NCBI GenBank assembly: GCA_001695595.3
Contig: MBPM02000112.1
Location: 1 to 64,000, forward strand
Origin: Plasmopara viticola
Taxonomy: Eukaryota > Oomycota > Peronosporomycetes > Peronosporales > Peronosporaceae
Direction: 5' to 3'
Length of the DNA stretch: 64,000 nt
The notes below the pieces were generated by a model, which was not told the DNA's origin, did no database searches, and saw only the letters and a list, made by a program, of their open reading frames with translations. The position numbers and the translations under genes are program-made. Below, in pieces: positions 33,813-62,050 of this stretch (positions within the stretch are counted from its first letter, which is position 1; every line of letters starts with the position of its first letter).

Positions 33813-33828
33813 GGTCAGTTTGCCCGAG
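33813..33828. repeat. E1 target-site duplication, left copy
   Basis: GGTCAGTTTGCCCGAG occurs here and at 41642-41657 on the other side of E1. The following T could belong to either the target or the element. The target normally reads TGGGTCAG, so E1's right copy seems to have lost one G. Confidence 0.9.
33814..33828 (+). pseudogene. 5' fragment of tRNA-Leu(CAG) cut by E1
   Basis: Only the first 15 nt of the tRNA remain before the E1 3' end begins. This is the left copy of the target duplication; the same bases recur at 41643-41657 within a complete tRNA. Confidence 0.95.
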
Positions 33829-33934
33829 TTCAAGTAGTCTGTATTACTTAATACGACTTCCACTTCTCTATGCCTACGTCGTTTAACTAATATACAATCT
33901 ACTACCTTTCTATAGGTTAATTTGAGGCTTTCTT

Positions 33935-34477
33935 TTAATCGTTTGGTGTGACAAGCACTTTGATCGGCTGGATAGAACTGATTGATTTTCATTCACAATC
34001 CTTCACCGGGACCAGTATTTCTGTTGGTTTCGCGGATATCCACTTGGACGTGATAGTTGACCTACCTAGCAAAGTATTGACCTCCCATGTACAGTTCGAA
34101 GCCTTGTCCATCGTTGCGGGAAGCGAAGCCGGTGTTCCAGCTCTCGGTCCGCTGCAGACACGCCTGCTTAGAGCGGTCAACCACTATCTCCACAACAGAA
34201 CTCGGGCTCGAGCCGCCCGTCGCCCTTTCGGGCCCTGGCGACGACCCTCTAGTCTCCGAAACTGAAGTGGAGAAGTGGAGGCTCACTCTTTGGACGCGCA
34301 GCCCTGATGCAGCGCCTCGACCACAGGGTCCTCTACCGCAGCAACTGGATCGAGAGTCAGGCTCAGGCCGCCCGTCACCCTTTCGGGCCCTGGCGACGAC
34401 CGTCTAGTCTCTGACCTCAATCCAGTCGTCTTGGTCGGGGAGGGCCTGGGGAAGCACTGGTTGCCGGTTGAGTTCAT
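33935..34477 (-). pseudogene. E1 ORF3 remnant (internally deleted)
   Basis: It starts at an ATG (product MNSTGNQCF) that E2 also has, 351 nt after the ORF2 stop. The first 64 codons match E2 ORF3 (shared DPVVEA), then the frame ends. Compared with E2 about 690 bp are missing, including the chromodomain and the catalytic-Cys part of the protease-like region, and a segment encoding SSPGPER is duplicated. The C-terminal end is still recognisable (QVN, NTG, PIKV) down to a TAA at the same place as the E2 TAG, but with a +1 shift before it. E3 shares this shortened layout. Confidence 0.65.
34218..34243 (-). other. Hairpin-forming motif in E1 3' region
   Basis: CGTCGCC at 34218-34224 and GGCGACG at 34237-34243 form a perfect 7-bp stem around a GGGCCC-containing loop. 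A second copy at 34373-34398 has one change that becomes a G-U pair in the minus-strand (element sense) RNA. Both copies overlap SSPGPER-coding sequence, so the pairing may be incidental. Confidence 0.4.
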
Positions 34478-34554
34478 CCTGGCTACTTGGGGCTTGATCG
34501 GCTTGACTTGGGTACTTGGAGGAAAATTGGAAAGTGAGGATGTGTGTTATGAGG

Positions 34555-34636
34555 CACAAAATCACCTCTATATCTTATCCCCTCCGAAAATCGATCACAA
34601 AATCACCTCTAGATCTTATCCCCTCCGAAAATCGAT
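34555..34636. repeat. 41-bp tandem duplication between ORF2 and ORF3 of E1
   Basis: Bases 34555-34595 and 34596-34636 differ at one position; the shared core includes TTATCCCCTCCGAAAATCGA. E2 and E3 have a single copy, so this is private to E1. Confidence 0.9.
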
Positions 34637-34828
34637 CGCTCTTAAAATAATATTCTGACCTGTCAGACTGATCACCCGTCTAAGCCGATCACTTTGGGAC
34701 ATGATATTCTGTAAAAATTCATATACAGTATCACAGGTAAACCGAAATCTTGGCCAATTTTGGAGCCGAATTGAGTCCGCCGGCGAAAAGAAACGGCTGA
34801 GGCGAAGTGTTGGTAGAAGTAGGGACGG

Positions 34829-37800
34829 CTACAGGAAACGCACAACAAACAGCGGAGCGTTGGTGCGCATAAAGGCACCCATCGAGCGAGAGCATCGGAG
34901 TCGGGTCAGCACAGAATGGAGCGATGCTTGCTGGTCTTCGTCGTACACCCTGCGTTTGCATGCACGCACGTGGGCACTAAGTGTGGTGTACACGACCCGG
35001 AGCGCAGGCACCAGAGGCAAAAGCTCACGCTGGCGGAACAATCCGTCATTGCGCACTGTCCACAGCAAGTGGAGCGTGATGCAACGTGTGATCTGCCACA
35101 GATCATGCACCACGGCGGCATGGTCGTGCCAAGCGGATGTAAGGGCTGGTGGGCGACCAAGGGCGATGTCGAGCCATGTCGGTGTGGTGACAAAGAAAGC
35201 TGACCAGTCCGAAACAGAACTGGCCATAGCTCGGCTGGTAGAACGCACTCAAAGAACAGGTGCCGTTCTGTTTCCACTGCGTTGCATCCGCTGCGTACGC
35301 AGTAGATGATGCCAGGATGCGCCTCGCGCAGAAAAGAGAATCGTGAACGCACTGGCAACAGACGGAAGGCGAGTCGGAATTGCAGATCTTCGTATACAGG
35401 AAGCAGCAGCCGACGTAAACGCTTGGACTGTTCCACGAAAACTTTGATGTCGATTGTTGTGGCGTGCTCATCGTGCAGCTGGGTTGGGTGTGGCTTCGTG
35501 GCGTGGGGATCTTCCACACAAGCAGGAGCAACTGGGAACGTGGTACTAAGGGCGCAACACAGACGCGTTCCCCCACGCGCACGCCAACGTATGGTGCAGT
35601 GGGACACACCCAGGCCACGCCTGGAGGCGGAAGCGGTGTATTGGCGCATAGATCCCGTAGTCGCTCGAAGACTTGTGTGGCTTCGTGATGCAGGCGTCGG
35701 AGCCACTGGTACTGCTGGTACACAGGGACTGACGTGAGCCGGTAGTCAATGTGTCCGCGCGCAAACGCATCAGCATCCGGCCATGCACCGCCAGCGTTCA
35801 AGAAGTCAGCAAGACACCGAAGTTTGAAAGTTGTTGCGGTGTGCTGGCGGTAGCTGCGCTGGGGCTCGGCAACCATGCAAAGACTACGCCGCTGTACTTT
35901 TGAGCTGCTAACACGGGCGGCGAGTTCAAACTGGAAAGCAGCGTCGGCGTGGAACCAAATTGGTTGGTTCAGCACATAGCCGAGGCGGGCGAGGGGGGCG
36001 AGGTCTCGCCATGTGACTTCCCACTTGGTCATATACCATAGACGCCAGACTTGGCGCCACCACTGTGACAACACATCCCACCGCAGCAGAGCGCCGTGGC
36101 GCATGGGGCTAACCGTAAGATAGTCGAGAGGACGCCGGGGACCCCAAGTGGGCAACACAAGCGACAGAAGCACGACTCCTGGTGTGGTCCAGTTACATTG
36201 GGACGAGGTCGACGCAGCGATGAACTGGAGCAGCACGCTGAGCTTTTGACGCTTGAGTGAGGCTTCGATGCTGGGTACTGACAGACCACCGTCGGAGCGA
36301 GGTTGATACAGAAACTCCTTGGGAATCAGCTGGACGTGTTTGGCGTTGCGTTCGTAGCGACGTGCAAGTACAAAGCGGTTGAGCGTGGACTGCCACTGCT
36401 TAACGATCCGCTGCGGGATTGGCACATGCACAGTGTAGTGCCACAACCGAGAAAGCACCATTGTTAGCGCAACCAGCAGGCGTCCTCGCAAGGTGCGAGC
36501 GCGACGAAACCATTGGAGAAAACCTTCGTAGAATCGCCTGTCCAAGAGCTCTATGATGGCGTTTTCAACAGGATCCTGACCAAACAGGATGCCCAGAAAC
36601 TTGACCGTCTCACCACGCTGGAGCAACTTGACACCAGGAAAACAAGGAGGGTTTGTCCGTCGGTTTAGAGGCATAAGCACGCATTTGGCATAGTTGAGCT
36701 TGGCTCCGGAGCCATCGCAGTACAGCTGAACCAGGTCAAGCTGTGCCTGGATGCCGGACACCGAGCCAGAGAGCAACGTTGTGTCATCAGCAAAAAAGAC
36801 GCTGGTGGCGGTGTGGTCTTCGGTGAGGCAAACACCATGCTCTTCATGCTGTCGGAGCAGGTTCCCCAGTGGCTCGATAGCCATAAGAAACAGCAGCGCT
36901 GAGAGTGGGTCGCCTTGCTTGACTCCTCTTGTGGGGAAAATCGGCGGCTGGATGTGACCGTTGAGCAAGAGGTGTGCTTGTGGGGCGGTGTAAAGCAACC
37001 TCGCCCAGTTGGTGAAGGCGCCGCCGCAACCCATGCGATCGAGCACTTGAAACATGTAGTCCCAGTCGACCCGATCGTACGCCTTCTCGAAATCGAGAAA
37101 CAAAGCGTAGGCTTCTTCGTCGCGTGCAGTCGTGAGGTCTTGCAGATCGGCCATGAACCGCACATGATGATGAATAGACCGACCCTTGACGAACGCCTTC
37201 TGGTCGGTGTGTATAAGCTCAGGAAGGCAGTGCTGGAGGCGGTAGGTCAAGACCTTGGATAACGCCTTCACGTCAACGCCAATGAGCGAGATCGGCCGAA
37301 AGTTTCCGGGGTCGTCACGCGAGCCTTTCTTGTGCAACATGCACACAGCCGACTTGCGCTGGGAAGGGAGGAGCTCACCTCGTGCCAACTGATAATTGAA
37401 CACTATGCTCAGACATTCCCCGAAAACGTCGGGCGCGACCTGATAGAAGCCAGCTGTGAGACCGTCCATGCCAGGCGCGGAGTTGGTCTTCATATGCTTG
37501 AGCGCGTCAGCAAGATTGGCTCCGGAAATCGGGGCGTTGAGACGGTCTTGTTCATCGGTTGTTAGACGCTTGTCAATCGTGTTCAACAGCTTTCGTCGGC
37601 TGCTGGGATTGATGGTTGGTAATGGTCCGGCAGGATTGGCAGCATCGCCCATGATACAACCCCAGTGGGCCCGAAAGCATGCTGAGATGTCCGCTGGGTT
37701 TTGCGAGATGTCGCCGCTGGGAGTCCGAACTTGTTCAATGCTTACCCGTCGGAGTGATGGGTCGATCGGACGGAAGAAGTACGTGGAAGACGTCTCGGCC

Positions 37801-38966
37801 TTCTGAACTTGAAAGTCAAAGGCCGAGTCTTGGTTGTAGCAGCGAGACCGGGTCACGCAGTCGCGGTATGTGTCTAGTGCAGCACGAAAGGCCTCTTGGG
37901 AGGTTGCGTCTCGCTTGTTATGGTACCGCATTGCTGCTTGGTCTAGCGTGATTTGTGCGGCTGTAATGGCGACGTCGTTTTGGCTGCGTAGCTTACGTTG
38001 GAGGGCCTGTAGCTGGCGCCGCATAAATTTCTTCCACTGCTCCCAGACTTTGCCTGGGTTCGATGCAGCCTGGAGATTCTCGAGCACCTGTCGGGCTTCA
38101 CCACAGATGGCATCGACAACATCGGAGTACTCAAGAAGATACTCCGGAAAGCGCCAGTAGCCATATCCGTGGAGTTGAGACACCGAGCGCAAGGTTACTG
38201 TGTGCGCCAGGTGGTCACCAGCACCTTTGGGCTCAAAGTACTTAGAGTCGCCGTACAACGCGTTGCAGAAGTCTTCCGACAACATAGCATAGTCAAGTCG
38301 GTTCTGCCTCGGCTGGGGGCCAGTGTATATGCGCTCGTCTTGGTGGTGGATCCGCCAGGCATCTACGACACCTAGCTGGCTCAGCCAGCTCATACAAGCG
38401 CTGCGGCCCGGGCGAGCAAGCAAGCGTGGCTGGGATGAGTCGAGGCTGGGGTTCAGCGGCGTGTTCAAATCGCCGAGGACTATGTGCGTTGCATTGTCCT
38501 CAAAGCGGTCCACTGGAAGATGGTTGAAGAACACAGCTTTTTCGTGGTCGTCCACCGGCGAGTACACATTGTGGATGTACACAGGTGCACTGACGACCAC
38601 CAATCGAACAACTAGATAGCGTCCCGGACAGTCAGCTCGCGAAGCTCTTCGGCCGCATCGAAGCCTGGAAAGTCGTAGCGAAGCACAGTGAGCACTCCGC
38701 CAGATCGGTGTGTTGTCTGTGTGGCACTGACTGCACCAGGGTCGCTGACGAATAGCTTGTGCTGAAACGGGCCTGAAGGTTAAATTTGAAGGTGTCAAGA
38801 TGGTGGCAATCGCGGAATTTGGTCTCCTGGATGCAAGAGAGGCTGTGCTTCTCGAGCAAATTCTCTATTAGTAGGTGCCGTTTTTCTTGATCCCGTTGGT
38901 ATTAACGGTCAGCAAGCTGACTTCTTGCCACGAGACCTCGGGTGCGTCCACGCGTGGGACCACCTT
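34829..38966 (-). pseudogene. E1 ORF2: APE endonuclease + reverse transcriptase, frameshifted
   Basis: Domain order is APE endonuclease (CIQET near 38835; VYSP; GDLN near 38470; RLDYAML near 38290; GDH), then reverse transcriptase (APGMDG; LDFEKAYDR near 37080; GVKQGDPLS; FADD near 36790; KFLGILFG), then a C-x4-C-x7-H-x4-C zinc knuckle near 35260-35310. No RNase H is visible. The reading begins one base out of phase with the end of ORF1 and has no ATG before the endonuclease. Breaks relative to E2 are one-base losses at 38763, 38626, about 35500 and about 35210, plus an A-run length change at 38881-38885. The stretch from 38626 to 35500, including the whole RT, is uninterrupted. The product would nick the tRNA gene and prime cDNA synthesis there. 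Confidence 0.93.
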
Positions 38967-41552
38967 AGCACCTTAAGGCGAGCGGTCCAGTCACAAGCAC
39001 AGACTGACCGTCGACTTGCTGGAGCTGGAGCACATCCGCGTTCTCTGGGAAGTAATGGCCGCAGTCACGAAGGTACTCGAGGTCTTCGAGTATATCCCCT
39101 TGCCACTGGACTGCTTCCCAAATCTTGAAGCAGTGTGTGCCGATCTCGGAGCGAAGCAGGACCAACAACATATTGGGGTGAAGAAGACGTCGGTTGTGCG
39201 CTGGTATCCAAGGCACCGACCACCCGGTCAGACGCTGGAGCCAGTAGTCCTTTTCAAAGATCTGGGGCGCTGTGCACATCAACATCAACTCAAAGAGGGA
39301 CAGCGCCCTAGTCGCACGCACAATAGTTGGTGTGTCCGGGTTGTTCCACCACTGGGCAACGCATCGGAATACACCGTCACGCGTCTTAGGCACCTTGGTG
39401 CCGAGATACTTGGCCCACTTGCGAGCGAACGTATTCGTTTCGGTGTTGTCGGTCGCGCTTAAGATGCGATTGATCATGTGAAGCTGGGCCAGCTCGGTGA
39501 CGCTGGGGCTCAGCTCACGCATCTCACGCAAGAGCGCGGTGTTAAACGCCATTGGAGCTTTAACGGACCCCATGAACGTCAGCGTGTCGGGGTTGTTCGT
39601 CGTGCGAAGCGACTTGCGAAGGCCACTCACCATGGTGTCGGCGGCGGCCAAGCGATCCGGAAGCAGCTGGAGATCGGCTGTCTGTTCAGTAGCCTCCATC
39701 TCGCTGACAATCTCTTGGATTGGAGTAGGCTCTTTGGTTTTCACCACTCTGGTGTGGTGTTTGGTCAGAAAGTGACTGGCTTCTTTGCTGTCAGTCAGGT
39801 TGCGCGGCGCCTGCACCTTGCGTGGCACAATTTGAAACCGTGGGATCTCGACCTCATCGAGCGTTGCTGGGCAGCAGTCAAACTCGACCTCGACATTGCT
39901 GAGCACGTCGAAATAGTTGCTTGTCGTGACGCCGGTGAGAGGTTTCGGACGAGATTTCATCAGCATATTGGCAAAGTCTTCATCAGCACGAGAACGTTTG
40001 CCTTTGCGTTTGCCACCGACCCTGGGCACCAACTCAGATTGGGCAGTCGGTGGTGGTGGGAGCAAGAGCAACGGAGACGATGTCGGGCTGCTTGGTGGCG
40101 ACACGACTTGGGAGCCTGCAGTGCTTAGGGACAGCTCACTAGGCTCTAAGGTATCAGTCGGTGCTGCAACGATAGCAGTGGTCGCGGCAGAGTCTTCACG
40201 GATCGATCGTTGGAGCGACGTTTCCTGCACGCCACGACGTACCACGGCAGCATAAGATGGCTGCGACGGGCATTTATCTGGCCGCCTTTGGCTAGTGTCG
40301 GAGGATGGACCACCGTCTCTAGCTAAGTCGAGCGCGTGGATTGAGCGTTGACCGAACGACATGCGTTGGGTTGGAAACGGAGCGTTTTTGTGTGTACTGG
40401 GTAAATGCGTCCAGCAAAAACGAGCTGGTCGCACACAGTACCACTTATCACGAGCTCCGGAGGGCAATGGCTAGAGCGGAAGTACACACGCCAAGTGGCG
40501 GTGGTGATCACCGCGTCCAGATTTACATCGCGGAAAGTGCCGTAGATCGGCTGCGTACCGAGCTCGAAGAAGCGTTTCAACATGAGATCAGCATCGAAGT
40601 CACTGTCGACACTTGACACATCAATAAAGAAGCGGTCGGCAAGGATGTCAAACCCGCCGAATCGGTACCTGCCTCCGAGGATCTTGACTTCCTGGCCAGC
40701 AAGACTCTGGCAGGCTTCTTTCGTCTTCACCTTGACGCGGATGTTGCCGCCGGGAGCTTTGGTCAGCTGACCTAGTTGCTGCTGGTCGATTTGCTGTTGT
40801 ACGACAGGGTTGCCCTGGTCCTTGAGCAACGACGCGAGGATTTTGCTTGGTGCAGTGCGCTGGAAGGCGTGTCCAGTCTCGATGACCATTACATAGCGTG
40901 CACGAGGCAGCGCGTATGGACGAGCTCGGTCAATCGAGGCGGCGAGTTGGCTCCAATCGCCTCCGGCTTCATAAAGAGCATCAATGGTTTCGATGTCCAT
41001 CGCCTTGGGGCGGGGCATCTCGACACGCGGCGGGGCGGGTGCCTCAACGTTGTCGCGGCGGATCTCCGTAGAACGTTGAAGCAGGGCACGAAGCGTTGGC
41101 ATGCGCGTTGGTGCGCTCGCAGTCGAACGCGTGCGAGTTGCTGCGGTTTGCGGGAGAGCACTGGCGTTAGTTGGTGGCGTATATTGGCGTGTGTCGCTGT
41201 TGGGCTGCACATCTTCCACAAAATCCTGCGAAGCAGGTGGCTTGTGCGCAGGCGTGACCCGCAGCTGCACGATCATGCCATCACTTGTTTCGTGCGAGGC
41301 TTGCGACACAGAACCAGCGTTACTACCCTGGTCCGTGCATAAACACGAAGCTTCGATGGAACCGTGAATCCCACCGGCATCTGGGTTGTTGGGTACGGAC
41401 CCAGCTGAACTGTCGCTTGGTAGGGTTGCGGAACCTTCTATAGGCGATGGGTCGTGGGTACGTGCGGGGGAGGATGGGCGTAGAATCAGCTCACCCATCT
41501 CACAATCAGCTTGCGCTGACTCTAAGAAAGGGCAACTGGCTTCGGTGTCCAT
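38965..41552 (-). pseudogene. E1 ORF1 (gag-like), broken by one frameshift
   Basis: The start is the ATG matching the intact E2 copy (product beginning MDTEASCPF), 89 nt inside the element. The frame is open to about 40390, where one base is missing after a T5 run (plus strand). Compared with E2 this is near codon 389. The rest is open in another frame down to a TAA at 38965. An upstream in-frame GTG at 41621 was rejected as the start because E2 uses the ATG. The product should be the LINE ORF1 RNA-binding protein; no CCHC zinc knuckle is visible. Confidence 0.85.
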
Positions 41553-41641
41553 TGGTGGAAAGGCTTGCTTGGGTGCTTGAAAACTGGATACTTCGAAACT
41601 TGACTTGGTCGACTTGAGCACGACGAGGCAAATTGAGAAGT

Positions 41642-41657
41642 GGTCAGTTTGCCCGAG
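41642..41657. repeat. E1 target-site duplication, right copy
   Basis: Same 16 nt as 33813-33828. It forms the 5' end of the complete tRNA at 41643. Confidence 0.9.
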
Positions 41658-41724
41658 TGGTCTAAGGGGTTACGTTCAGGTCGTAATGTTTTCGAACGCG
41701 TGGGTTCAAATCCCACAGCTGACA
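41643..41724 (+). tRNA. tRNA-Leu(CAG), regenerated beside E1
   Basis: Full 82-nt class. Its 5' flank is now the E1 5' end (minus strand), so tRNA and element are divergent with about 1 bp between them. Box A and box B are complete. Confidence 0.97.
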
Positions 41725-42384
41725 AGTTGTCCTGCTAGTGTCTTTGAGACGACGATTGCGCTGCCGTCTCCAACTTTTGCATACATCTTCTTAAGCTGCA
41801 GTAAATTTCAAAGGTCTGGTTTTGAGGTCACAATGGCGACGTCCATCAATTCGAGACGATGAGAAAGTTTGTATCCAGCTACCAATCATGTGCCGCATAT
41901 TTACAACCGAGAAAAGCTAAGTTTTACGATGTGAGTCAGTACTTGTAAGTCACTTGCGGACCAGGTCACTGCTTGCGAATGAAGCTGAGACTCCATTTGC
42001 AGGTAGCATGAAAATGTACGCGCAGCTGATATGATGACTGTGCTCTATGGTACAGTATACTAAAGGCAGCAAACCCAAGTTGCATTCAGCATGTGAGCAT
42101 ATAGAGCTTGACAAAGCCAGTAGCACGCAGAGGCAAGTAGTGTATGTAGTGTGGGCATGATTCAATAATCAATGAATGACTATAGAAAAATGCAACTGAA
42201 TACGTAAGTAGCTAGGCTTGTCGTACAACACTTCATGTATAATCTCTGTGGGATTGGTCGATGGTTGCATATTTGAGCACTGATATTGCTATGCGATTAG
42301 ATTATTTCAGCACTAAGATTGCTATTTGATTACATTATTAAAGCACGAGTTTTTGTATTTTGTAGCCTGGTGATATTGTAATGG

Positions 42385-42466
42385 GTCAGTTTGCCCGAGT
42401 GGTCTAAGGGGTTACGTTCAGGTCGTAATGTTTTCGAACGCGTGGGTTCAAATCCCACAGCTGACA
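42385..42466 (+). tRNA. tRNA-Leu(CAG)
   Basis: Full 82-nt class. Confidence 0.97.
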
Positions 42467-43126
42467 AGTTGTCCTGCTAGTGTCTTTGAGACGACGATTG
42501 CGCTGCCGTCTCCAACTTTTGCATACATCTTCTTAAGCTGCAGTAAATTTCAAAGGTCTGGTTTTGAGGTCACAATGGCGACGTCCATCAATTCGAGACG
42601 ATGAGAAAGTTTGTATCCAGCTACCAATCATGTGCCGCATATTTACAACCGAGAAAAGCTAAGTTTTACGATGTGAGTCAGTACTTGTAAGTCACTTGCG
42701 GACCAGGTCACTGCTTGCGAATGAAGCTGAGACTCCATTTGCAGGTAGCATGAAAATGTACGCGCAGCTGATATGATGACTGTGCTCTATGGTACAGTAT
42801 ACTAAAGGCAGCAAACCCAAGTTGCATTCAGCATGTGAGCATATAGAGCTTGACAAAGCCAGTAGCACGCAGAGGCAAGTAGTGTATGTAGTGTGGGCAT
42901 GATTCAATAATCAATGAATGACTATAGAAAAATGCAACTGAATACGTAAGTAGCTAGGCTTGTCGTACAACACTTCATGTATAATCTCTGTGGGATTGGT
43001 CGATGGTTGCATATTTGAGCACTGATATTGCTATGCGATTAGATTATTTCAGCACTAAGATTGCTATTTGATTACATTATTAAAGCACGAGTTTTTGTAT
43101 TTTGTAGCCTGGTGATATTGTAATGG

Positions 43127-43208
43127 GTCAGTTTGCCCGAGTGGTCTAAGGGGTTACGTTCAGGTCGTAATGTTTTCGAACGCGTGGGTTCAAATCCCAC
43201 AGCTGACA
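43127..43208 (+). tRNA. tRNA-Leu(CAG)
   Basis: Full 82-nt class; its spacer has the one-base loss near 43665 (741-bp unit). Confidence 0.97.
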
Positions 43209-43867
43209 AGTTGTCCTGCTAGTGTCTTTGAGACGACGATTGCGCTGCCGTCTCCAACTTTTGCATACATCTTCTTAAGCTGCAGTAAATTTCAAAGGTC
43301 TGGTTTTGAGGTCACAATGGCGACGTCCATCAATTCGAGACGATGAGAAAGTTTGTATCCAGCTACCAATCATGTGCCGCATATTTACAACCGAGAAAAG
43401 CTAAGTTTTACGATGTGAGTCAGTACTTGTAAGTCACTTGCGGACCAGGTCACTGCTTGCGAATGAAGCTGAGACTCCATTTGCAGGTAGCATGAAAATG
43501 TACGCGCAGCTGATATGATGACTGTGCTCTATGGTACAGTATACTAAAGGCAGCAAACCCAAGTTGCATTCAGCATGTGAGCATATAGAGCTTGACAAAG
43601 CCAGTAGCACGCAGAGGCAAGTAGTCTATGTAGTGTGGGCATGATTCAATAATCAATGAATGACTTAGAAAAATGCAACTGAATACGTAAGTAGCTAGGC
43701 TTGTCGTACAACACTTCATGTATAATCTCTGTGGGATTGGTCGATGGTTGCATATTTGAGCACTGATATTGCTATGCGATTAGATTATTTCAGCACTAAG
43801 ATTGCTATTTGATTACATTATTAAAGCACGAGTTTTTGTATTTTGTAGCCTGGTGATATTGTAATGG

Positions 43868-51366: not shown

Positions 51367-52026
51367 AGTTGTCCTGCTAGTGTCTTTGAGACGACGATTG
51401 CGCTGCCGTCTCCAACTTTTGCATACATCTTCTTAAGCTGCAGTAAATTTCAAAGGTCTGGTTTTGAGGTCACAATGGCGACGTCCATCAATTCGAGACG
51501 ATGAGAAAGTTTGTATCCAGCTACCAATCATGTGCCGCATATTTACAACCGAGAAAAGCTAAGTTTTACGATGTGAGTCAGTACTTGTAAGTCACTTGCG
51601 GACCAGGTCACTGCTTGCGAATGAAGCTGAGACTCCATTTGCAGGTAGCATGAAAATATACGCGCAGCTGGTAAGATGACTGTGCTCTATGGTACAGTAT
51701 ACTAGAAGCAGCGAACCCAAGTTGCATTCAGCATGTGAGCATATAGAGCTTGACAAAGCCAGTAGCACGCAGAGGCAAGTAGTGTATGTAGTGTGGGCAT
51801 GATTCAATAATCAATGAATGACTTTAGAAAAATGCAACTGAATACGTAAGTAGCTAGGCTTGTCGTACAACACTTCATGTATAATCTCTGTGGGATTGGT
51901 CGATGGTTGCATATTTGAGCACTGATATTGCTATGCGATTACATTATTTCAGCACTAAGATTGCTATTTGATTACATTATAAAAGCACTAGTTTTTGTAT
52001 TTTGTAGCCTGGTGATATTGTAATGG

Positions 52027-52108
52027 GTCAGTTTGCCCGAGTGGTCTAAGGGGTTACGTTCAGGTTGTAATGTTTTCGAACGCGTGGGTTCAAATCCCAC
52101 AGCTGACA
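52027..52108 (+). tRNA. tRNA-Leu(CAG), anticodon-stem variant
   Basis: A full-length gene with one C to T change right after the anticodon loop (CAGGTT for CAGGTC), turning the closing G-C pair into G-U. Probably still functional. Confidence 0.92.
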
Positions 52109-52765
52109 AGTTGTCCTGCTAGTGTCTTTGAGACGACGATTGCGCTGCCGTCTCCAACTTTTGCGTACATCTTCTTAAGCTGCAGTAAATTTCAAAGGTC
52201 TGGTTTTGAGGTCACAATGGCGACGTCCATCAATTCGAGACGATGAGAAAGTTTGTATCCAGCTACCAATCATGTGCCGCATATTTACAACCGAGAAAAG
52301 CTAAGTTTTACGATGTGAGTCAGTACTTGTAAGTCACTTGCGGACCAGGTCACTGCTAGTGAATGAAGCTGAGACTCCATTTGCAGGTAGCATGAAAATG
52401 TACGCGCAGCTGGTAAGATGACTGTGCTCTATGGTACAGTATACTAGAAGCAGCGAACCCAAGTTGCATTCAGCATGTGAGCATATAGAGCTTGACAAAG
52501 CCAGTAGCACGCAGAGGCAAGTAGTCTATGTAGTGTGGGCATGATTCAATAATCAATGAATGACTATAGAAAAATGCAACTGAATACGTAAGTAGCTAGG
52601 CTTGTCGTACAACACTTCATGTATAATTTCTGTGGGATTGGTCGATGGTTGCATATTTGAGCACTGATATTGCTATGCGATTACATTATTTCAGCACTAA
52701 GATTGCTATTTGATTACATTATTAAAGCACTAGTTTTTGTATTTTGTAGCCTGGTGATATTGTAA

Positions 52766-52783
52766 TGGGTCAGTTTGGCCGAG
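52766..52783. repeat. E2 target-site duplication, left copy
   Basis: TGGGTCAGTTTGGCCGAG here matches 61238-61255 with one mismatch (GGCC versus GCCC). Confidence 0.88.
52769..52783 (+). pseudogene. 5' fragment of tRNA-Leu cut by E2
   Basis: The first 15 nt of the tRNA, followed at once by the E2 3' end. It reads TTTGGCCGAG where the array has TTTGCCCGAG. Confidence 0.95.
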
Positions 52784-52887
52784 TTCAAGTAGTCTGTATG
52801 ACTGAATACGACTTAGACTTTTCTATGACACGTCGAATATTAATATACAATTTACTACTTTGCTATAGACTAATGTGATGTGGACTT

Positions 52888-54115
52888 CTAGTCGTTAGAT
52901 GTGACAAACACCTTGATCGGTCGGATAAAACTAATGGTACGAAACCATAAGTTCTCACCGAGACCAGTATTGATGCTATTATCGCGAATAATTACCTCAC
53001 CTTGATCGTTGACCTGCATAGCAAATCAGTGACCTCGCATGTTCTTCTTGTACACCCCGACGAGGTATACACCACGGGCAAGAACGACTTTGGGCATGGG
53101 AAGCATCCGTCCAGCGATTGCGAGGTATCCTGCACCATTGCCGTCGAAGAGTTTACAGCGAAGTTGAGGCAGGTGAATGCTCCATCCTGACCTGGGGACG
53201 GCTTGACGACAGTAACGAACGATCTGGTCAATATTCCGGAAGCCATTGGTCACATCAAAGCCAACGAGCTTGGCTTGGTTGACGTAGTCTTGCCAGATGT
53301 TGGGTAGCCTTCGACTTGTGTCGGTGAGACCCATAAGCTCAAACGCCATTTGGATGGCGTGAGCGACGCACGAGTTATCCTCATTGTCGGCTATGGCAAG
53401 GAGGGCGCGACAGTCTCGGGCCACAAAGTCTTGATAGCTAATGTCGCGACCCGGGTGGCGTGTGAAGTATCTATCCACAATTTCGAGAGATTCTTGGTTA
53501 CCATCTTCGATGAGATGTTTGCGAGAGAGCCAAGAAGGCTCCGAGGAATCCTTCCAACGGACATGATACTCGTACTCGTCAGCGGGACCTCGACGATCGT
53601 CGATAGCCTCGATCTCGGCAACTTTGACAATGGCTGTAGAGCGACACGGACGTTTGGGGGCTGCATGGCGGCAAGTTGTTCAGCAGACCGCTTTCGAAGG
53701 CGGTATCGCTGGGCAGACGTGTCCTCGCTCGAAGTGGCTCGTGTAAGTACTGCGCTCGGTGCCTGAGAGCTGGAAGCACTAGCTGGCACTCTTGGGCTAG
53801 CCGAGAGTGGGCACGAAGGCAATGTCGGTAATTCTAGGGCTGAAGAAACTGGCATCGACGCAAGGTGTGAGGCCATGTCCGGAGTGGCAGGAGGCGTGAT
53901 TGGTGTTGCAGCCCTCGCACCAAACTTGGAAGCGCTGTCCTTTTGTGGTGCCTCGACCACAGGGTCCTCAACCGCAGCGACTGGATCAAGAGTCAGGCTC
54001 AGGCCGCCCGTCACCCTTTCGGGCCCTGGCGATGACCGTCTAGTCTCCAACCCTGGTCCAGCCGTCTTGGTGGGGGGGGGGCCCTGGGGAAGCACTGGTT
54101 GCTAGTTGAGTTCAT
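52888..54115 (-). pseudogene. E2 ORF3: chromodomain + papain-like protease-like protein, broken
   Basis: This third ORF starts 311 nt after ORF2 at an ATG shared with E1 (MNSTSNQCF). A long G run near 54071-54082 causes an early shift, after which a 234-codon frame (54095-53391) encodes a Pro/Ser/Ala-rich linker ending in a basic RYRLRKR patch. Near 53680-53630 the meaningful frame changes again. The next frame (53679-53026) encodes a chromodomain at about 53622-53455 (EYEYHVRWK, then EPSWLSRKHL: the Y...W...W aromatic pattern), then a region with Cys in DNSCVAHAI (near 53369), His in NMRGH (53031-53029) and, after a TGA at 53028-53026, an Asp/Asn in IIRDNS. That Cys-His-Asp/Asn order fits a papain-like peptidase. 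Chromodomains bind methylated histone tails. The chromodomain call is fairly firm, the protease call tentative. Confidence 0.7.
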
Positions 54116-54426
54116 CCTGGCTAGCTTGGGGCTTGGTCGGCTTGACTTGGGTACTTAGAGGAAAATTGGAAAGCGAGGATGTGTGTTATGAGGCACAAAA
54201 TCACCTCGAGATCTTATCCCCTCCGAAAATCGATCACTCTTAATTTAATATTCTGACCTGTCAGACTTATTCCCCGTCTAAGCCGATCATTTTGGGACAT
54301 GATTTTCTGTAAAAATTCATATACAGTATCACAGGTAAACCGAGATTTTGGCCAGTTTTGAAGCCGAATTGAGTCCGCCGGCGAAAAGTAACGGCTGAGG
54401 CGAAGTGTTGGTAGAAGTAGGGACGG

Positions 54427-57400
54427 CTATAGGAAACGCACAGCAAACAGCGGAGCGTTGGTGCGCATAAAGGCACCCATCGAGCGAGAGCATTGGAGCC
54501 GGGTCAGCACAGACTGGAGCGATGCTTTTTGGTCTTCGTCGTACACCCTACGTTTGCATGCACGCACGTGGGCACTAATTGTGGTGTACACGACCCGGAG
54601 CGCAGGCACCAGAGGTAAAAGCTCACGCTGGCGGAACAATCCGTCATTGCGCATTGTCCACAGCAAGTGGAGCGTGATGCAACGTGTGATCTGCCACAGA
54701 TCATGCACCACGGCGGCATGGTCGTGCCAAGCGGATGTAAGGGTTGGTGGGCGACCAAGGGCGATGTCGAGCCATGTCGGTGTGGTGACGAAGAAAGCTG
54801 ACCGGTCGCGAAACAAAACTGGCGATAGCTCGGCTGATAGAACGCACTCAAAGAACAGATGCCGCTCTGTTTCCACTGCGTTGCATCCGTTGCGTACGCA
54901 GTAGATGATGCCGGGATGCGCCTCGCGCATAAAAGAGAATCGTGAACGCACTGGCAACAGACGGAAGGCGAGTCGGAATTGCAGATCTTCGTATACAGGA
55001 AGCAGCAGCCGTCGTAAACGCTTGGACTGGCTCACAAATACCTTGATGTCGGTTGTTGTGGCGTTTTCATCGTGCAGCTGGATTGGGTGTGGCTTTGTGG
55101 GCGTGGGGATATTCCACACAAGCAGGAGCAACTGGGATCGCGGTACTAAGGGTGCAACACAGACACGTTTCCCCACGCGCACGCCAACGTATGGTGCAGT
55201 GGGACACACCCAGGCCACGCCTGGAGGCGGAAGCGGTGTATCGGCGCATAGATCACGTAGTCGCCTGAAGATTTGTGTGGCTTCGTGATGCAGGCGTCGG
55301 AGCCACTGGTACTGCTGGTACACAGGGACTGACGTAAGCCGGTAGTCGATGTGGCCGCGCGCAAACGCATCAGCACCCGGCCATGCACCCCCAGCGTCCA
55401 AGAAGTCAGCAAGACACCGAAGCTTGAAGGTTGTTGCGATGTGCTGGCGGTAGCTGCGCTGGGGCTCGGCAACCATGCACAGACTACGCCGCTGTACTTT
55501 TGAGCTGCTAACACGGGCGGCGAGTTCAAACTGGAAATCAGCGTCGGCGTGGAACCAAATCGGTTGGTTCATCACATAGCCGAGGCGGGCGAGGGGGGCG
55601 AGGTCTCGCCATGTGACTTCCCACTTGGTCATATACCATTGACGCCAGACTTGACGCCACCACTGTGACAACACATCCCACCGCAGCAGAGCGCCGTGGC
55701 GCATGGGGCTAACCGTAAGATAGTCGAGAGGACGCCGGGGACCCCAAGTGGGCAGCACAAGCGACAAAAGCACGACTCCTGGTATGGTCCAGTTACATTG
55801 GGACGAGATCGACGTAGCGATGAACTGGAGCAGCACGCTGAGCTTTTGACGCTTGAGTGAGGCTTCGATGCTGGGTACTGACAGACCACCGTCGGAGCGA
55901 GGTTGATACAGAAACTCCTTGGGAATCAGCTGGACGTGTTTGGCGTTGCGTTCGTAGCGACGTGCAAGTACAAAGCGGTTGAGCGTGGACTGCAACTGCT
56001 TAACGATCCGCTGCGGGATTGGCACATGCACAGTGTAGTGCCACAACCGAGAAAGCACCATTGTTAGCGCAACCAGCAGGCGTCCTCGCAAGGTGCGAGC
56101 GCGACGAAACCATTGGAGAAAACATTCGTAGAATCGCCTGTCCAAGAGCTCTATGATGGCGTTTTCAACAGGATCCTGACCAAACAGGATGCCCAGAAAC
56201 TTGACCGTCTCACCACGCTGGAGCACCTTAACACCAGGAAAACAAGGAGGGTTTTTCCGTCGGTTTAGAGACATAAACACGCATTTGGCATAGTTGAGCC
56301 TGGCTCCGGAGCCATCGCAGTACAGTTAAACCAGGTCAAGCTGTGCCTGGATGCCGGACACCGAGCCAGAGAGCAACGTTGTGTCATCAGCAAAAAAGAC
56401 GCTGGTGGCGGTGTGGTCTTCGGTGAGGCAAACACCATGCTCTTCATGCTGTCGGAGGAGGTTCCCCAGTGGCTCGATGGCCATAAGAAACAGCAGCGCT
56501 GAGAGTGGGTCGCCTTGCTTGACTCCTCTTGTGGGGAACATCGGCGGCTGGATGTGACCGTTGAGCAAAAGCTGTGCTTGTGGGGCGGTGTAAAGCAACT
56601 TCGCGCAGTTGGTGAAGGCGCCGCCGCAACCCATGCGATCGAGCACTTGAAACATGTAGTCCCATTCGACCCGATCGTATGCCTTCTCGAAGTCGAGAAA
56701 CAAAGCGTAGGCTTCTTCGTCGCGTGCAGTCGTGAGGTCTTGCAGATCGGCCATGAACCGCACATGATGATGAATAGTCCGACCCTTGACGAACGCCTTC
56801 TGGTCGGTGTGTATAAGCTCAGGAAGGCAGTGCTGGAGGCGGTAGGTCAAGACCTTGGACAACGCCTTCACGTCAACGCCAATTAGCGAGATCGGCCGAA
56901 AGTTGCCGGGGTCGTCACGCGAGCCTTTCTTGTGCAACATGCACACAGCCGACTTGCGCTGGGAAGGGAGGAGCTCACCTCGTGCCAACTGATAATTGAA
57001 CACTATGCTCAGACATTCCCCGAAAACGTCGGGCGCGACTTGATAGAAGCCAGCCGTGGGACCGTCCATGCCAGGCGCGGAGTTGGTCTTCATATGCTTG
57101 AGCGCGTCAGCAAGATTGGCTCCGGAAATCGGGGCGTTGAGACGGTCTTGTTCATCGGTTGTTAGACGCTTGTCAATCGTGTTCAACAGCTTTCGTCGGC
57201 TGCTGGGATTGATGGGTGGTAATGGTCCAGGCAGCATCGCCTATGATACAACCCCAGTGGGCCCGAAAGCATGCTGAGATGTCCGCTGAGTTTGCGAGAT
57301 GTCGTCGCTGGGAGTCCGAACTTTTTCAATGCTGACCCGTCGGAGTGATGGGTCGATCGGACGGAAGAAGTACGTGGCAGCCGTCTCGGCCTTCTGAACT

Positions 57401-58561
57401 TGAAAGTCAAAGGCCGAGTCTTGGTTGTAGCAGCGAGACCGGGTCACGCAGTCGCGGTATGTGTCTAGTGCAGCACGAAAGGCTCCTTGGGAGGTTGCGT
57501 CTCGCTTGTTATGGTACCGCATTGCTGCTTGGTCTAGCGTGATTTGTGCGGCTGTAATGGCGACGTCGTTTTGGCTGCGTAGCTTACGTTGGAGGGCCTG
57601 TAGCTGGCGCCGCATAAATTTCTTCCACAGCTCCCAGACTTTGCCTGGGTTCGATGCAGCCTGAAGATTCTCGAGCACCTGTTGAGCTTCACCACAGATA
57701 GCAACGACAAAATCGGAGTACTCAAGAAGATACTCCGGAAAGCACCAGTAGCCATATCCGTGGAGCTGAGACACCGAGCGCAAGGTTACTGTGTGCGCCA
57801 GGTGGTCACCAGCACCTTTGGGCTCAAAGTACTTAGAGTCGCCGTACAACGCGTTGCAGAAGTCTTCCGACAACATAGCATAGTCAAGTCGGTTCTGCCT
57901 CGGCTAAGGGCCAGTGTATATGCGCTCGTCTTGGTGGTGGATCCGCCAGGCATCTACGACACCTTGCTGGCTCAGCCAGCTCATACAAGCGCTGCGGCCC
58001 GGGCGAGCAAGCAAGCGTGGCTGGGATGAGTCGAGGCTGGGGTTCAGCGGCGTGTTCAAATCGCCGAGGACTATGTGCGTTGCATTGTCCTCAAAGCGGT
58101 CCACTGGAAGATGGTTGAAGAACACAGCTTTTTCGTGGTCGTCCACCGGCGAGTACACATTGTGGATGTACACAGGTGCACTGACGACCACCAATCGAAC
58201 AACTAGATAGCGTCCCGGGACAGTCAGCTCGCGAAGCTCTTCGGCCGCATCGAAGCCTGGAAAGTCGTAGCGAAGCACAGTGAGCACTCCGCCAGATCGG
58301 TGTGTTGTCTGTGTGGCACTGACTGCACCAGGGTCGCTGACGAATAGCTTGTGCTTGAAACGGGCCTGAAGGTTAAATGTGAAGGTGTCAAGATGGTGGC
58401 AATCGCGTAATTTGGTCTCCTGGATGCAAGAGAGGCTGTGCTTCTCGAGCAAGCTCTCGATTAGTAGGTGTCCTTTTTTTCTTGATCCCGTTGGTATTAA
58501 CGGTCAGCAAGCTGACTTCTTGCCACGAGACCTCGGGTGCGTTCACGCGTGGGACCACCTT
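54427..58561 (-). pseudogene. E2 ORF2: APE endonuclease + reverse transcriptase, with stops
   Basis: The layout matches E1. The N-terminal motif LLTVNTNG lies just after ORF1, one base out of phase. Endonuclease motifs are CIQET, VYSP, GDLN and GDH; RT motifs are LDFEKAYDR near 56690, GVKQGDPLS and FADD near 56390; the C-terminal knuckle C-x4-C-x7-H-x4-C is near 54850-54910. Breaks relative to E1: an A-run length change near 58474-58480, a TAG at 57904-57906 where E1 has CAG, a one-base loss at 57291 and an 8-nt loss near 57229 (together restoring frame), and a TAA at 56326-56328 where E1 has CAG. The last 617 codons are open. The product is inactive unless supplied from another copy. Confidence 0.93.
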
Positions 58562-61148
58562 AGCACCTTAAGGCGAGCGGTTCAGTCACAAGCTCAGACT
58601 GACCGTCGACTTGCTGGAGCTGGAGCACATCCGCGTTCTCTGGGAAGTAATGGTCGCAGTCACGAAGGCACTCGAGGTCTTCGAGTATATCCCCTTGCCA
58701 CTGGACTGCTTCCCAAATCTTGAAACAGTGTGTGCCGATCTCGGAGCGAAGCAGGACCAACAACATATTGGGGTGAAGAAGACGTCGGTTGTGCGCTGGT
58801 ATCCAAGGCACCGACCACCCGGTCAGACGCTGGAGCCAGTAGTCCTTTTCAAAGATCTGGGGCGCTGTGCACATCAACATCAACTCAAAGAGGGACAGCG
58901 CCTTAGTCGCACGCACAATAGTTGGTGTGTCCGGGTTGTTCCACCACTGAGCAACGCACCGGAATACACCGTCACGCGTCTTAGGCACCTTGGTGCCGAG
59001 ATACTTGGCCCACTTGCGAGCGAACGTGTTGGTTTCGGTGTTGTCGGTCGCGCTTAAGATGCGATTGATCATGTGAAGCTGGGCCAGCTCGGTGACGCTG
59101 GGGCTCAGCTCACGCATCTCACGCAAGAGCGCGGTGTTAAACGCCATTGGAGCTTTAACGGAGCCCATGAACGTCAGCATGTCGGGGTTGTTCGTCGTGC
59201 GAAGCGACTTGCGAAGGCCACTCACCATGGTGTCGGCGGCGGCCAAGCGATCCGGAAGCAGCTGGAGATCGGCTGTCTGTTCAGTAGCCTCCATCTCGCT
59301 GACAATCTCTTGAATTGGAGTAGGCTCTTTGGTTTTCACCACTCTGGTGTGGTGTTTGGTCAGAAAGTGACTGGCTTCTTTGCTGTCAGTCAGGTTGCGC
59401 GGCGCCTGCACCTTGCGTGGCACAATTTGAAACCGTGGGATCTCGACCTCATCAAGCGTCGCTGGGCAGCAGTCAAACTCGACCTCGACATTGCTGAGCA
59501 CGTCGAAATACTTGCTTGTCGTGACGTCGGTGAGAGGTTTCGGACGAGATTTCATCAGCATATTGGCAAAGTCTCCATCAGCACGAGAACGTTTGCCTTT
59601 GCGTTTGCCACCGACCCTGGGCACCAACTCAGATTGGGCAGTCGGTGGTGGTGGGAGCAAGAGCAATGGAGACGATGTCGGGCTGCTTGGTGGCGACACG
59701 ACTTGGGATCCTGCAGTGCTTGGGGACAGCTCACTAGGCTCTACGGTATCAGTCGGTGCTGCAACGATAGCAGTGGTCGTGGCAGAGTCTTCACGGATCG
59801 ATCGTCGAAGCGACGTTTCCTGCACGCCACGACGTACCACGGCAGCACAAGATGGCTGCGACAGGCATTTATCTGGCCTGCTTTGGCTAGTGTTGGAAGA
59901 TGGACCACCGTCTCCAGCTAAGTCGAGCGCGTGGATCGAGCGTTGACCGAACGACATGCGTTGGGTTGGAAACGGAGCGTTTTTCGTGTGTACTGGGTAA
60001 ATGCGTCCAGCAAAAACGAGCTGGTCGCACACAGTACCACTTATCACGAGCTCCGGAGGGCAATGGCTAGAGCGGAAGTACACACGCCAAGTGGCGGTGG
60101 TGATTACCGCGTCCAGATTTACATCGCGGAACGTGCCGTAGATCGGCTGCGTACCGAGCTCGAAGAAGCGTTTCAACATGAGATCAGCATCGAAGTCACT
60201 GTCGACACTTGACACATCAATAAAGAAGCGGTCGGCAAGGATCTCAAACCCGCCGAATTGGTACCTGCCTCCGAGGATCGTGACTTCCTGGCCAGCAAGA
60301 CTCTGGCAGGCTTCTTTCGTCTTCACCTTGACGCGGATGTTGCCGCCGGGAGCTTTGGTCAGCTGACCTAGTTGCTGCTGGTCGATTTGCTGTTGTACGA
60401 CAGGGTTGCCCTGGTCCTTGAGCAACGACGCGAGGATTTTGCTTGGTGCAGTGCGCTGGAAGGCGTGTCCAGTCTCGATGACCATTACATAGCGTGCACG
60501 AGGCAGCGCGTATGGACGAGCTCGGTCAATCGAGGCGGCGAGTTGGCTCCAATCGCCTCCGGCTTCATAAAGAGCATCAATGGCTTCGATGTCTATCGCC
60601 TTGGGGCGGAGCATCTCGACACGCGGCGGGGCGGGTGCCTCAACGTTGTCGCGGCGGATCTCCGTAGAACGTTGAAGCAGGGCACGAAGCGTTGGCGTGC
60701 GCGTTGGTGCGCTCGCAGTCAAACGCGTGCGAGTTGCTGCGGTTTGCGGGAGAGCACTGGCGTTAGTTGGTGGCGTATATTGGCGTGTGTCGCTGTTGGG
60801 CTGCACATCTTCCACAAAATCCTGCGAAGCAGGTGGCTTGTGCGCAGGCGGGACACGCAGCTGCACCACCATGCCATCACTTGATTCGTGCGAGGCTTGC
60901 GCCACAGAACCAGCGTTACTACCCTGGTCCTTGCATAAAAACGAAGCTTCGATGGAACCGTGAATCCCACCGGCATCTGGGTTGTTGTGTACGGACCCAG
61001 CTGAACTGTCGCTTGATAGGGTTGCGGAACCTTCTATAGGCGATGGGTCGTGGGTACGTGCGAGGGGGGATGGGCGTAGAATCAGCTCACCCATCTCACA
61101 ATCAGCTTGCGCTGACTCTAAGAAAGGGCAACTGGCTTCGGTGTCCAT
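58560..61148 (-). CDS. E2 ORF1: gag-like protein, 862 aa, intact
   Basis: This is the only fully open element gene in the window. It begins with ATG (MDTEASCPF) 90 nt from the element 5' end and ends at TAA. Residues 1-190 are Ser/Thr/Pro-rich and low in complexity. Residues about 210-395 are a conserved block whose second half (RFFIDVSS, then WRVYFRSS and VFAGRIYPV) could form an RRM-like RNA-binding fold. A Pro-rich linker follows (about 460-505), then a basic patch GKRKGKRSR near 514-522 that could be a nuclear localisation signal, and a conserved C-terminal domain (about 610-862) rich in Trp and Leu. There is no CCHC knuckle. The expected role, from LINE biology, is binding element RNA as a ribonucleoprotein. 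The fold assignment is by eye. Confidence 0.9.
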   Translation of the reverse strand: MDTEASCPFLESAQADCEMGELILRPSPLARTHDPSPIEGSATLSSDSSAGSVHNNPDAGGIHGSIEASFLCKDQGSNAGSVAQASHESSDGMVVQLRVPPAHKPPASQDFVEDVQPNSDTRQYTPPTNASALPQTAATRTRLTASAPTRTPTLRALLQRSTEIRRDNVEAPAPPRVEMLRPKAIDIEAIDALYEAGGDWSQLAASIDRARPYALPRARYVMVIETGHAFQRTAPSKILASLLKDQGNPVVQQQIDQQQLGQLTKAPGGNIRVKVKTKEACQSLAGQEVTILGGRYQFGGFEILADRFFIDVSSVDSDFDADLMLKRFFELGTQPIYGTFRDVNLDAVITTATWRVYFRSSHCPPELVISGTVCDQLVFAGRIYPVHTKNAPFPTQRMSFGQRSIHALDLAGDGGPSSNTSQSRPDKCLSQPSCAAVVRRGVQETSLRRSIREDSATTTAIVAAPTDTVEPSELSPSTAGSQVVSPPSSPTSSPLLLLPPPPTAQSELVPRVGGKRKGKRSRADGDFANMLMKSRPKPLTDVTTSKYFDVLSNVEVEFDCCPATLDEVEIPRFQIVPRKVQAPRNLTDSKEASHFLTKHHTRVVKTKEPTPIQEIVSEMEATEQTADLQLLPDRLAAADTMVSGLRKSLRTTNNPDMLTFMGSVKAPMAFNTALLREMRELSPSVTELAQLHMINRILSATDNTETNTFARKWAKYLGTKVPKTRDGVFRCVAQWWNNPDTPTIVRATKALSLFELMLMCTAPQIFEKDYWLQRLTGWSVPWIPAHNRRLLHPNMLLVLLRSEIGTHCFKIWEAVQWQGDILEDLECLRDCDHYFPENADVLQLQQVDGQSELVTEPLALRC

Positions 61149-61237
61149 TGGGGGAAAGGCTTGCTTGGGTGCTTGAGAAACTGGATACTTCGAAACTTGA
61201 CTTGGTCGACTTGAGCACGACGAGGCAAATTGAGAAG

Positions 61238-61255
61238 TGGGTCAGTTTGCCCGAG
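61238..61255. repeat. E2 target-site duplication, right copy
   Basis: TGGGTCAGTTTGCCCGAG directly follows the E2 5' end (GAGAAG on the plus strand) and supplies the 5' end of the tRNA at 61241. Confidence 0.9.
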
Positions 61256-61322
61256 TTGTCTAAGGGGTTACGTTCAGGTCGTAATGTTTTCGAACGCGTG
61301 GGTTCAAATCCCACAGCTGACA
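61241..61322 (+). tRNA. tRNA-Leu(CAG), regenerated beside E2, D-loop mutation
   Basis: Full 82 nt, but GAGTGG reads GAGTTG, so one of the two conserved D-loop G residues (and part of box A) is changed. Folding and transcription may be impaired. Confidence 0.88.
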
Positions 61323-61948
61323 AGTTGTCCTGCTAGTGTCTTTGAGACGACGATTGCGCTGCCGTCTCCAACTTTTGCATACATCTTCTTAAGCTGCAGT
61401 AAATTTCAAAGGTCTGGTTTTGAGGTCACAATAGCGACGTCTATCAATTCGAAACAATGAGAAAGTTTGTATCCAGCTACCAATCATGTGCCGCATATTT
61501 ACAACCGAGAAAAGCTAAGTTTTACGGTGTGAGTCGCTACTTGATTGTCACTTGCGGACCAAGTCACTGCTTGTGAATGAAACTGAGACTCCATTTGCAG
61601 GTAGCATGAAAATGTACGCGCAGCTGGCTAGATGACTGTGCTCTGTGGTACAGTATACTAGAAGCAGCAAACCTAAGTTGCATTCAGCATGTGAGCATAT
61701 AGAGCTTGACAAAGCCGGTGAGACGCAGTAGCAAGTAGTGTATGTAGTGTGACATGATTCAATAACCAATAAATGACAATTTGAAAATGCAACTGAATAC
61801 GTAAGAAGCTAGGCTTGTCGTTCAGCGCTTCATTTATAATCTCTGTAGGATTGCTAGATGATTGCATTATTTTAGCATTGAGATTGCTATATGAAACATT
61901 ATATTAGCACTGGTTATTGATTTTTGTATCTTGGTGAACTTGTAATGG

Positions 61949-61963
61949 GTCAGTTTGCCCGAA
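61949..61963 (+). pseudogene. 5' fragment of tRNA-Leu cut by E3
   Basis: The first 15 nt of the tRNA with a final G to A (GCCCGAA), followed by the E3 3' end. The third insertion at the same position. Confidence 0.93.
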
Positions 61964-62050
61964 TTCAAGTAGTCTGTATAACATAATATGACTTGCACAT
62001 CTCTATGCCTACGTCGAAATATAATATACAAATTACTACCTCTCTACAAG

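Follow-up and report, generated by a model that had tools for sequence, protein, structure and literature searches.

The first 64,000 bases of contig MBPM02000112.1 (C112) of the oomycete Plasmopara viticola, here called the window, open with 742-bp units arranged in tandem, every one of which holds a single transfer RNA (tRNA) gene, tRNA-Leu(CAG), and this array is the target of long interspersed nuclear elements (LINEs), of which two full-length copies (E1 and E2) and a more diverged one (E3) lie in the window (Table 1). Apart from E1, the first 52.8 kb consist of the array, most units being 99.6–99.9% identical to the query unit and the last two 98.7 and 98.2%; in some units the tRNA-Leu(CAG) carries deletions in box A.

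All three elements join the tRNA gene directly after base 15 (GCCCGAG for E1, GGCCGAG for E2, whose tRNA bases 1–15 lie at 52769–52783, and GCCCGAA for E3), are antisense to it and continue with the same terminal TTCAAG, just as the first-pass annotation of this stretch had described; we read these junctions directly at 33829, 52784 and 61964. That annotation also gave target duplications of 16–18 bp, and these measure 16 bp, exact, for E1 and 18 bp, with one mismatch, for E2. E3 runs out of the window and no second tRNA copy was found in the 9,951 bases read beyond it, so that this copy is informative for the 3' junction only.

E1 and E2 align over 7,055 bp with 97% identity, whereas their last 263 bp are only 74.5% identical, and the 3' module has ~880 bp with a third open reading frame (ORF) in E2 versus ~200 bp in E1. 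As their 3' modules differ, simple duplication of one insertion along with the array does not account for the two. The occurrence of modules with ORF3 (53026–54101) and without it (E1 33829–34600) on otherwise 97% identical LINEs suggests that templates were switched, or that recombination took place, close to the 3' end.

Table 1. Features of the window (target array, elements, encoded frames and box A deletions)
Feature	Position	Strand	Remarks
Tandem array of 742-bp units, one tRNA-Leu(CAG) each	1..52768	+	interrupted by E1; the target
8-bp deletion (tRNA bases 21–28)	4256, 19061, 24207, 24941
9-bp box A deletion (bases 17–25)	6474..6546	+	also 14627, 17586, 19795, 21270
11-bp deletion (bases 13–23), two units directly before E1	32352..33813	+	same allele at 558, 22745, 23476
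E1 target duplication, left copy	33813..33828	+	1 bp plus tRNA bases 1–15 (tRNA bases at 33814–33828)
E1, full-length LINE	33829..41641	-	3' end 33829, 5' end 41641; TTCAAG from 33829
E1 ORF2, open frame	35103..38864	-	1253 amino acids stop to stop; predicted endonuclease (N-terminal part outside frame), reverse transcriptase (RT; RVT_1), C-terminal Cys/His motif (by eye)
E1 ORF1, interrupted	38965..41641	-	two overlapping open frames
E1 target duplication, right copy	41642..41657	+	16 bp, exact
Complete tRNA-Leu(CAG) gene at E1 5' end	41643..41724	+	head to head with E1
E2 target duplication, left copy	52766..52783	+	18 bp, one mismatch
E2, full-length LINE, different 3' module	52784..61237	-	TTCAAG from 52784
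E2 ORF3 in 3' module	53026..54101	-	two overlapping open frames; chromodomain-like and cysteine-protease-like by eye; absent from E1
E2 ORF2, interrupted	54427..58503	-	predicted endonuclease 57904–58503, RT 56326–57240, C-terminus 54427–56325
E2 ORF1	58560..61237	-	893-amino-acid open frame, stop to stop
E2 target duplication, right copy	61238..61255	+	18 bp
tRNA-Leu(CAG) gene at E2 5' end	61241..61322	+	one D-loop base differs
tRNA bases 1–15 left of E3	61949..61963	+	ends CCCGAA
E3, more diverged copy at array edge	61964..64000	-	TTCAAG from 61964; by homology extends past the window to ~65.9 kb of C112

Junctions of families A and B across the genome

The genome searched comprises 92,937,831 bases in 358 contigs. 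With the 200-bp 3' end of E1 as query, at least 41 candidates for what we call family A were found, window copies included; 40 were scored, and 40/40 join a tRNA gene or, in one case, a tRNA-like sequence after base 14/15, on 18 contigs. The targets are 4 Leu(CAG), 18 Leu(TAG), 2 Leu(CAA), 1 Leu(TAA-like) and 14 Ser genes, where the label 'Ser(gct)' covers all Ser genes (their first 15 bases are identical), and one degenerate tRNA-like sequence, whose element has its own target duplication; one copy (L040) is a partial match with a junction judged by eye and one mismatch in its duplication. The element is antisense at every junction read and its 3' end is nearly constant, without poly(A); in some copies it is truncated at the 5' end, and together with the target duplications these are the hallmarks of a LINE. 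No long terminal repeats were seen on reading the ends of E1 and E2, a reading that included no dedicated search for them. A short hairpin is visible by eye at the 3' ends; RNAalifold, run on 40 distinct 3' ends, gave 0.0 for all, -3.2 for 20 of family A and -0.9 for 20 of family B (see below).

The opposite end was sought with the E1 5' end, which matched 30 places, 26 of them family A over most of the query. A complete tRNA gene stands within 3 bases in 22 of these 26, with a 5' junction that is uncertain by 1–2 bases where the last G of the element coincides with the first G of the tRNA; at the remaining four, one tRNA is occupied by a second element (L019) and three are degenerate and tRNA-like (C9, C25, C49). 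The isoacceptors at the 5' ends are Leu CAG, TAG, CAA and TAA and Ser GCT, CGA, AGA and TGA. Three further matches are alike over the last 43–55 bp only and have complete Thr or Lys genes in all three cases; we assign them to family B on account of the B reverse transcriptases in their vicinity.

When both ends were read and paired by position, a duplication of 14–18 bp was present in 22/24 copies, 16 exact and 6 with one mismatch. It covers tRNA bases 1–15 plus 0–3 bp (base 1 is missing on C299), and an entire tRNA gene, the two internal promoter boxes included, consequently stands at the 5' junction. At five places (L019, L081, L100, L112, L115) we see by eye an element joined to the tRNA directly after the 5' end of another, so that the rebuilt gene has become a target again. 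Whole Leu(TAG) genes also stand next to three 5'-truncated copies of 542–546 bp that are 91% identical to the E2 3' module. Broken and open reading frames are found side by side among the copies, and an RT at C96:231089 that is 100% identical (rounded) to that of E1 points to recent activity.

A search with the E1 RT matched 126 places, most non-A copies being 65–70% identical. The sister families read here, collectively B, are a non-random sample of 42 of these matches, picked where the match reached the end of the query; further relatives, on C5, C3 and C1, have 52–61% RT identity. Their 3' ends were readable in 33/42, and 32 of the 33 lie at a tRNA box A, in genes for Lys(TTT, CTT), Ala, Thr, Met, Phe, Ile and Arg and in unassigned tRNAs (L092, L100, L112 and L114, three mismatches from Cys). 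Thirty of the 33 ends came from a motif search and a recheck added L103 and L111 (Lys) and L098 (Thr, junction GCTCTG); L086 and L088, with 8 and 13 bases of flank, were read by eye, as was the extra TTTAG in the Met gene at L096, and A14 is changed at the box A junctions of L098 and L115.

Bases 12–13 tell the two target sets apart. They are CG at 39/40 A sites and GG at the degenerate one; at B ends they are TC in 28/30 (box B site, described below, included), CC in one and TT in one (L096), the last printed so because of the extra TTTAG in a Met gene that itself reads TC, and the three recovered ends have TC as well. The joint falls after A14 or R15 (R, purine); in Ala and Arg genes intact copies have A15 as against G at the junction, so that the joint there follows A14 and the element supplies the G. 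The 5' ends of A and B are similar over the last 43–55 bp alone, directly upstream of the rebuilt tRNA, and this common stretch may serve as its new 5' flank.

Some B copies have neighbors of other kinds. Five copies with ORF3 (L124–L127, L132) have, within their 3' region or next to it, an antisense sequence that by eye resembles tRNA-Gly(TCC), except that the matching 5' acceptor strand is missing, and the 3' regions of L083 and L089 (C238, C140) hold another chromodomain-like frame on the opposite strand, perhaps another element. On C176 a dimeric tRNA-His/tRNA-Ala array with a period of ~301 bp terminates at a B insertion in an Ala gene (L079).

Encoded proteins and their relatives

The RT is of the non-LTR type (RVT_1, E 4.2e-33, Pfam, E1), and the best match of ORF2 in the PDB is human L1 ORF2p (E 9.8e-60), whose endonuclease part also aligned; an apurinic/apyrimidinic endonuclease (APE) domain exceeds the Pfam cut-off in the relatives P0003 and P0007. 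We thus predict ORF2 to be an APE-type endonuclease upstream of an L1-like RT. Pfam gave no domain above cut-off in ORF1 or ORF3. ORF1 (E2, 893 amino acids) has 16 matches; six carry names, every one from an oomycete. E2 ORF3 has 7 relatives, one named 'Chromo domain-containing' (Lagenidium) and two with chromodomain-like N-terminal parts, and conserved NSC..HA, HC and REN/RED motifs, seen by eye, suggest a cysteine protease. ORF3 is present in some B copies too; an AlphaFold model of a homologue, with a mean confidence score (pLDDT) of 45, was too poor for use. The relative P0123 and the LINE protein P0039 are each on a contig with a listed length of 8565, probably one and the same. Short hypothetical proteins of Plasmopara halstedii and Bremia lactucae (P0124–P0128) match the C-terminal half of ORF3; they, and likewise the ORFs of the Peronospora effusa units called 'SINE-like' (SINE, short interspersed nuclear element), may have been predicted as genes from LINE 3' ends that are truncated.

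Among the best 120 of 1293 RT matches, the named relatives are mostly from oomycetes (Globisporangium, Peronospora, Phytophthora, Aphanomyces), with one from a plant. In a tree of 108 rows, made by a quick method with an arbitrary root, several long branches and no known Tx1 row, E1, P0002 and P0003 (Globisporangium splendens) form a group with support 98, and a bigger one next to it contains P0024 (Plasmopara) and Globisporangium rows. Viral contigs gave no match in protein and pattern searches, nor did a collection of genome contigs in a pattern search.

Proposed mechanism of insertion into box A and its alternatives

The reading we prefer, with a probability of about 0.9, is that a clade of two-to-three-ORF LINEs with APE-type endonucleases lands by target-primed reverse transcription in the box A of tRNA genes. 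The endonuclease would nick the tRNA-sense strand after A14/R15, the freed 3' end at the nick would prime cDNA synthesis from the 3' tail of the element RNA, and a second cut would be made at the 5' boundary of the tRNA; the choice of bases at 12–13 would split the class II family (A) from the class I families (B). Because the stagger would coincide with the 5' portion of the tRNA, a full-length insertion would rebuild an intact tRNA gene, internal promoter included, with the upstream flank alone altered, and the restored gene would be open to further hits. We infer that it is this self-repair that makes a target with such destructive consequences tolerable. Every family A junction read agrees with a target-specific APE-type LINE nicking box A, as the first-pass annotation had proposed, and the outcome that it named as telling against this, unrelated DNA beside most genomic copies, did not appear at the scored ends. 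The specificity for tRNA-Leu(CAG) alone does not survive: family A also enters Leu TAG, CAA and TAA and four Ser isoacceptors, and the sister families enter class I tRNAs. Its interpretation is in this sense partly supported, being right in kind but too narrow for a site common to many tRNA genes.

Were the tRNA 5' fragment part of the element, a tRNA-derived tail merely common to its copies, it would be expected on every 3' end, where we indeed read it; yet its sequence changes with the tRNA gene found at the opposite end (Leu(CAG) has GTCAGTTTGCCCGAG, Leu(TAG) has GACACGATGGCCGAG and Ser has GACAGCTTGGCCGAG, and likewise for others), and the matched fragments at both element ends led us to reject such a tail, which we regard as practically out of the question. 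Descent of the array copies from one or few insertions through array expansion is very improbable, given that eight Leu and Ser isoacceptor genes are hit (5' ends), that the 3' ends are spread over so many contigs, that E1 and E2 have different 3' modules and that families with ~67% identical RT use the same base. Identical flanks of L026/L027 and of L024, L029–L032 and L037 do fit it, and the spread of one insertion by array duplication, the alternative named in the first-pass annotation, is accordingly rejected as the sole source of the set as a whole and true for some flank-sharing copies.

A less remote alternative, still unlikely in our estimation, is that targeting is guided by RNA polymerase III (Pol III) factors (TFIIIB/TFIIIC) sitting on the gene, as in the TRE5 elements of Dictyostelium, rather than by an endonuclease that reads box A. 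All targets seen are tRNA genes, the ORF1 protein of TRE5-A interacts with TFIIIB (PMC5911963), and one B insertion (L108) is in box B of a tRNA-Ser. The sequence at that insertion's joint, TTCA, however comes close to the CTCA core; joints here are constant to the single base, unlike the insertions of the factor-guided elements compared, which scatter over several to many bp outside the gene; and bases 12–13 part A from B targets, yet all of these are Pol III genes.

Several points weigh against insertion into box A as set out here. Many family A copies on C96 and C40 have common flanks, so that the independent events number far below 40; the C25 and C49 copies have no duplication, and a 5' end on C90 (a partial match, outside the 26) is without a tRNA. 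Among B elements, L108 (C211) lies in the T arm of its tRNA-Ser, at GTTCA, and in 9/42 no 3' junction was found (L082, L083, L089, L090, L091, L094, L095, L099, L117): five of these have a tRNA-Gly-like stretch left of ORF3, three are in other sequence, and one (L099/L129, C274), which could be a real exception to the box A rule, leads into a tRNA-Cys array whose orientation is the reverse of the expected one. The APE domain is under the Pfam cut-off in E1 (E 0.012) and E2 (Exo_endo_phos, E 8e-4), the LINEs compared are E1-type and sister families only, the 8-bp deletion considered next does not reach across the nick, the function of the rebuilt tRNA genes is assumed, and we infer the nick, the priming and the second cut from sequence.

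The box A deletions of the array, which cluster at the nick site, may be a further trace of these elements. In a comparison of 60 array units, the indels longer than 1 bp are three distinct deletions (11, 9 and 8 bp) within tRNA bases 13–28, in 14 units, leaving aside the divergent edge unit at 61241, where the spacer has lost 32 bp and several 1-bp indels occur; 1-bp deletions fall at bases 16 and 24, and elsewhere at 423 and 540 only. The 11-bp deletion spans the nick site and base 16 adjoins it. Among 40 units of a Leu(TAG) array, compared over the tRNA part alone, one has a 7-bp deletion ending at base 15 and is one further base short; the other alleles are a complex one 8 bases shorter, a 1-bp deletion in GGCC and a 1-bp insertion. 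It is possible that the deletions are failed nicks repaired by end joining, or that target-resistant alleles were selected. That they have nothing to do with the LINE, and arose by slippage, by transcription-linked damage or by chance, with conversion then spreading the chance events, is somewhat short of an even chance: there is microhomology at the breakpoints (by eye), the distinct multi-base deletions are just three, with alleles spread by conversion, and the 8-bp one stops short of the nick, while the confinement of the longer indels to bases 13–28 of 742 and the deletion ending at base 15 in a second array speak for a connection.

It is tempting to go further, in a picture that we hold tentatively and think somewhat more probably wrong than right, and to see here an old oomycete LINE clade for which box A, among the most highly conserved regions of tRNA genes, would be a general landing site in most isoacceptors, with targets allotted to the families by a two-base code (12–13) and a stagger matched to the tRNA 5' end returning the gene to the host; nicks would lead to box A deletions, truncated copies and rebuilt tRNAs would seed tandem arrays, and the giant 'SINE-like' tRNA arrays of downy mildews would be partly its product. 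Large tRNA arrays are described for Phytophthora infestans and Peronospora effusa (PMC9584435 and PMC11540230, respectively). With families split by two bases at one site, the evolution of LINE endonuclease target codes becomes testable, and since every eukaryote has box A in its tRNA genes, the endonuclease would lend itself to site-specific use at a locus that is universal and present in many copies. There may also be in this an account of the deletion alleles and, more speculatively, of the very large and variable tRNA arrays of the Peronosporaceae.

Comparison with other target-specific elements

Keno, in U2 genes, and Mutsu, in 5S genes, belong to the Tx1 clade. Like them and like Dewa, which PMC3706591 (citing Kojima and Fujiwara 2004) links to tRNA-Leu and places in its spacer, the LINEs described here insert at one constant position in multicopy RNA genes; they differ in that the site is inside the tRNA genes, of many isoacceptors, and the duplication rebuilds the gene. 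Strict target specificity, a trait not unique to Tx1, is evident in that 40/40 A and 32/33 B ends are at one site. In the literature searched we found no LINE inside tRNA box A, although an entry in Repbase only remains conceivable; tRNA genes are mentioned among LINE targets, without detail, in the portions seen of PMC4640811 and PMC8869645.

Box A itself is used by many families of Dada DNA transposons, which duplicate bases 8–13 (TAGCTC, or in Ser genes TGGCCG) with AG or AA coming next (PMC8869645). Dada has a DDE transposase and duplications of 6–7 bp, whereas the present LINEs have RT and APE domains, no transposase that we could find and duplications of 14–18 bp, join 1–2 bases further on and copy bases 1–15; the sharing of box A looks convergent. 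The TRE5, TRE3 and NLTR-A elements of dictyostelids are also non-LTR elements aimed at tRNA genes, but their insertions fall within a window outside the gene, for NLTR-A 2–6 bp upstream of the tRNA (PMC5006619), and NLTR-A has an RNase H domain; here the joint is at base 14/15, within the gene. Utopia, another site-specific LINE of a small RNA gene (U2), known from oomycetes and drawn with a Ulp1-like protease in PMC4640811, differs in its restriction-like endonuclease. The target here is tRNA box A, not U2, and no search for a restriction-like endonuclease was made.

R1 and R2, in ribosomal DNA, resemble the present elements in that they occupy one fixed position in an RNA gene that is arrayed in tandem. 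Insertion of either disrupts its target, and we know of no case in which R1 or R2 rebuilds the disrupted gene. In contrast to such disruption by LINEs that enter RNA genes, the cut geometry in these tRNA genes appears to restore the target.

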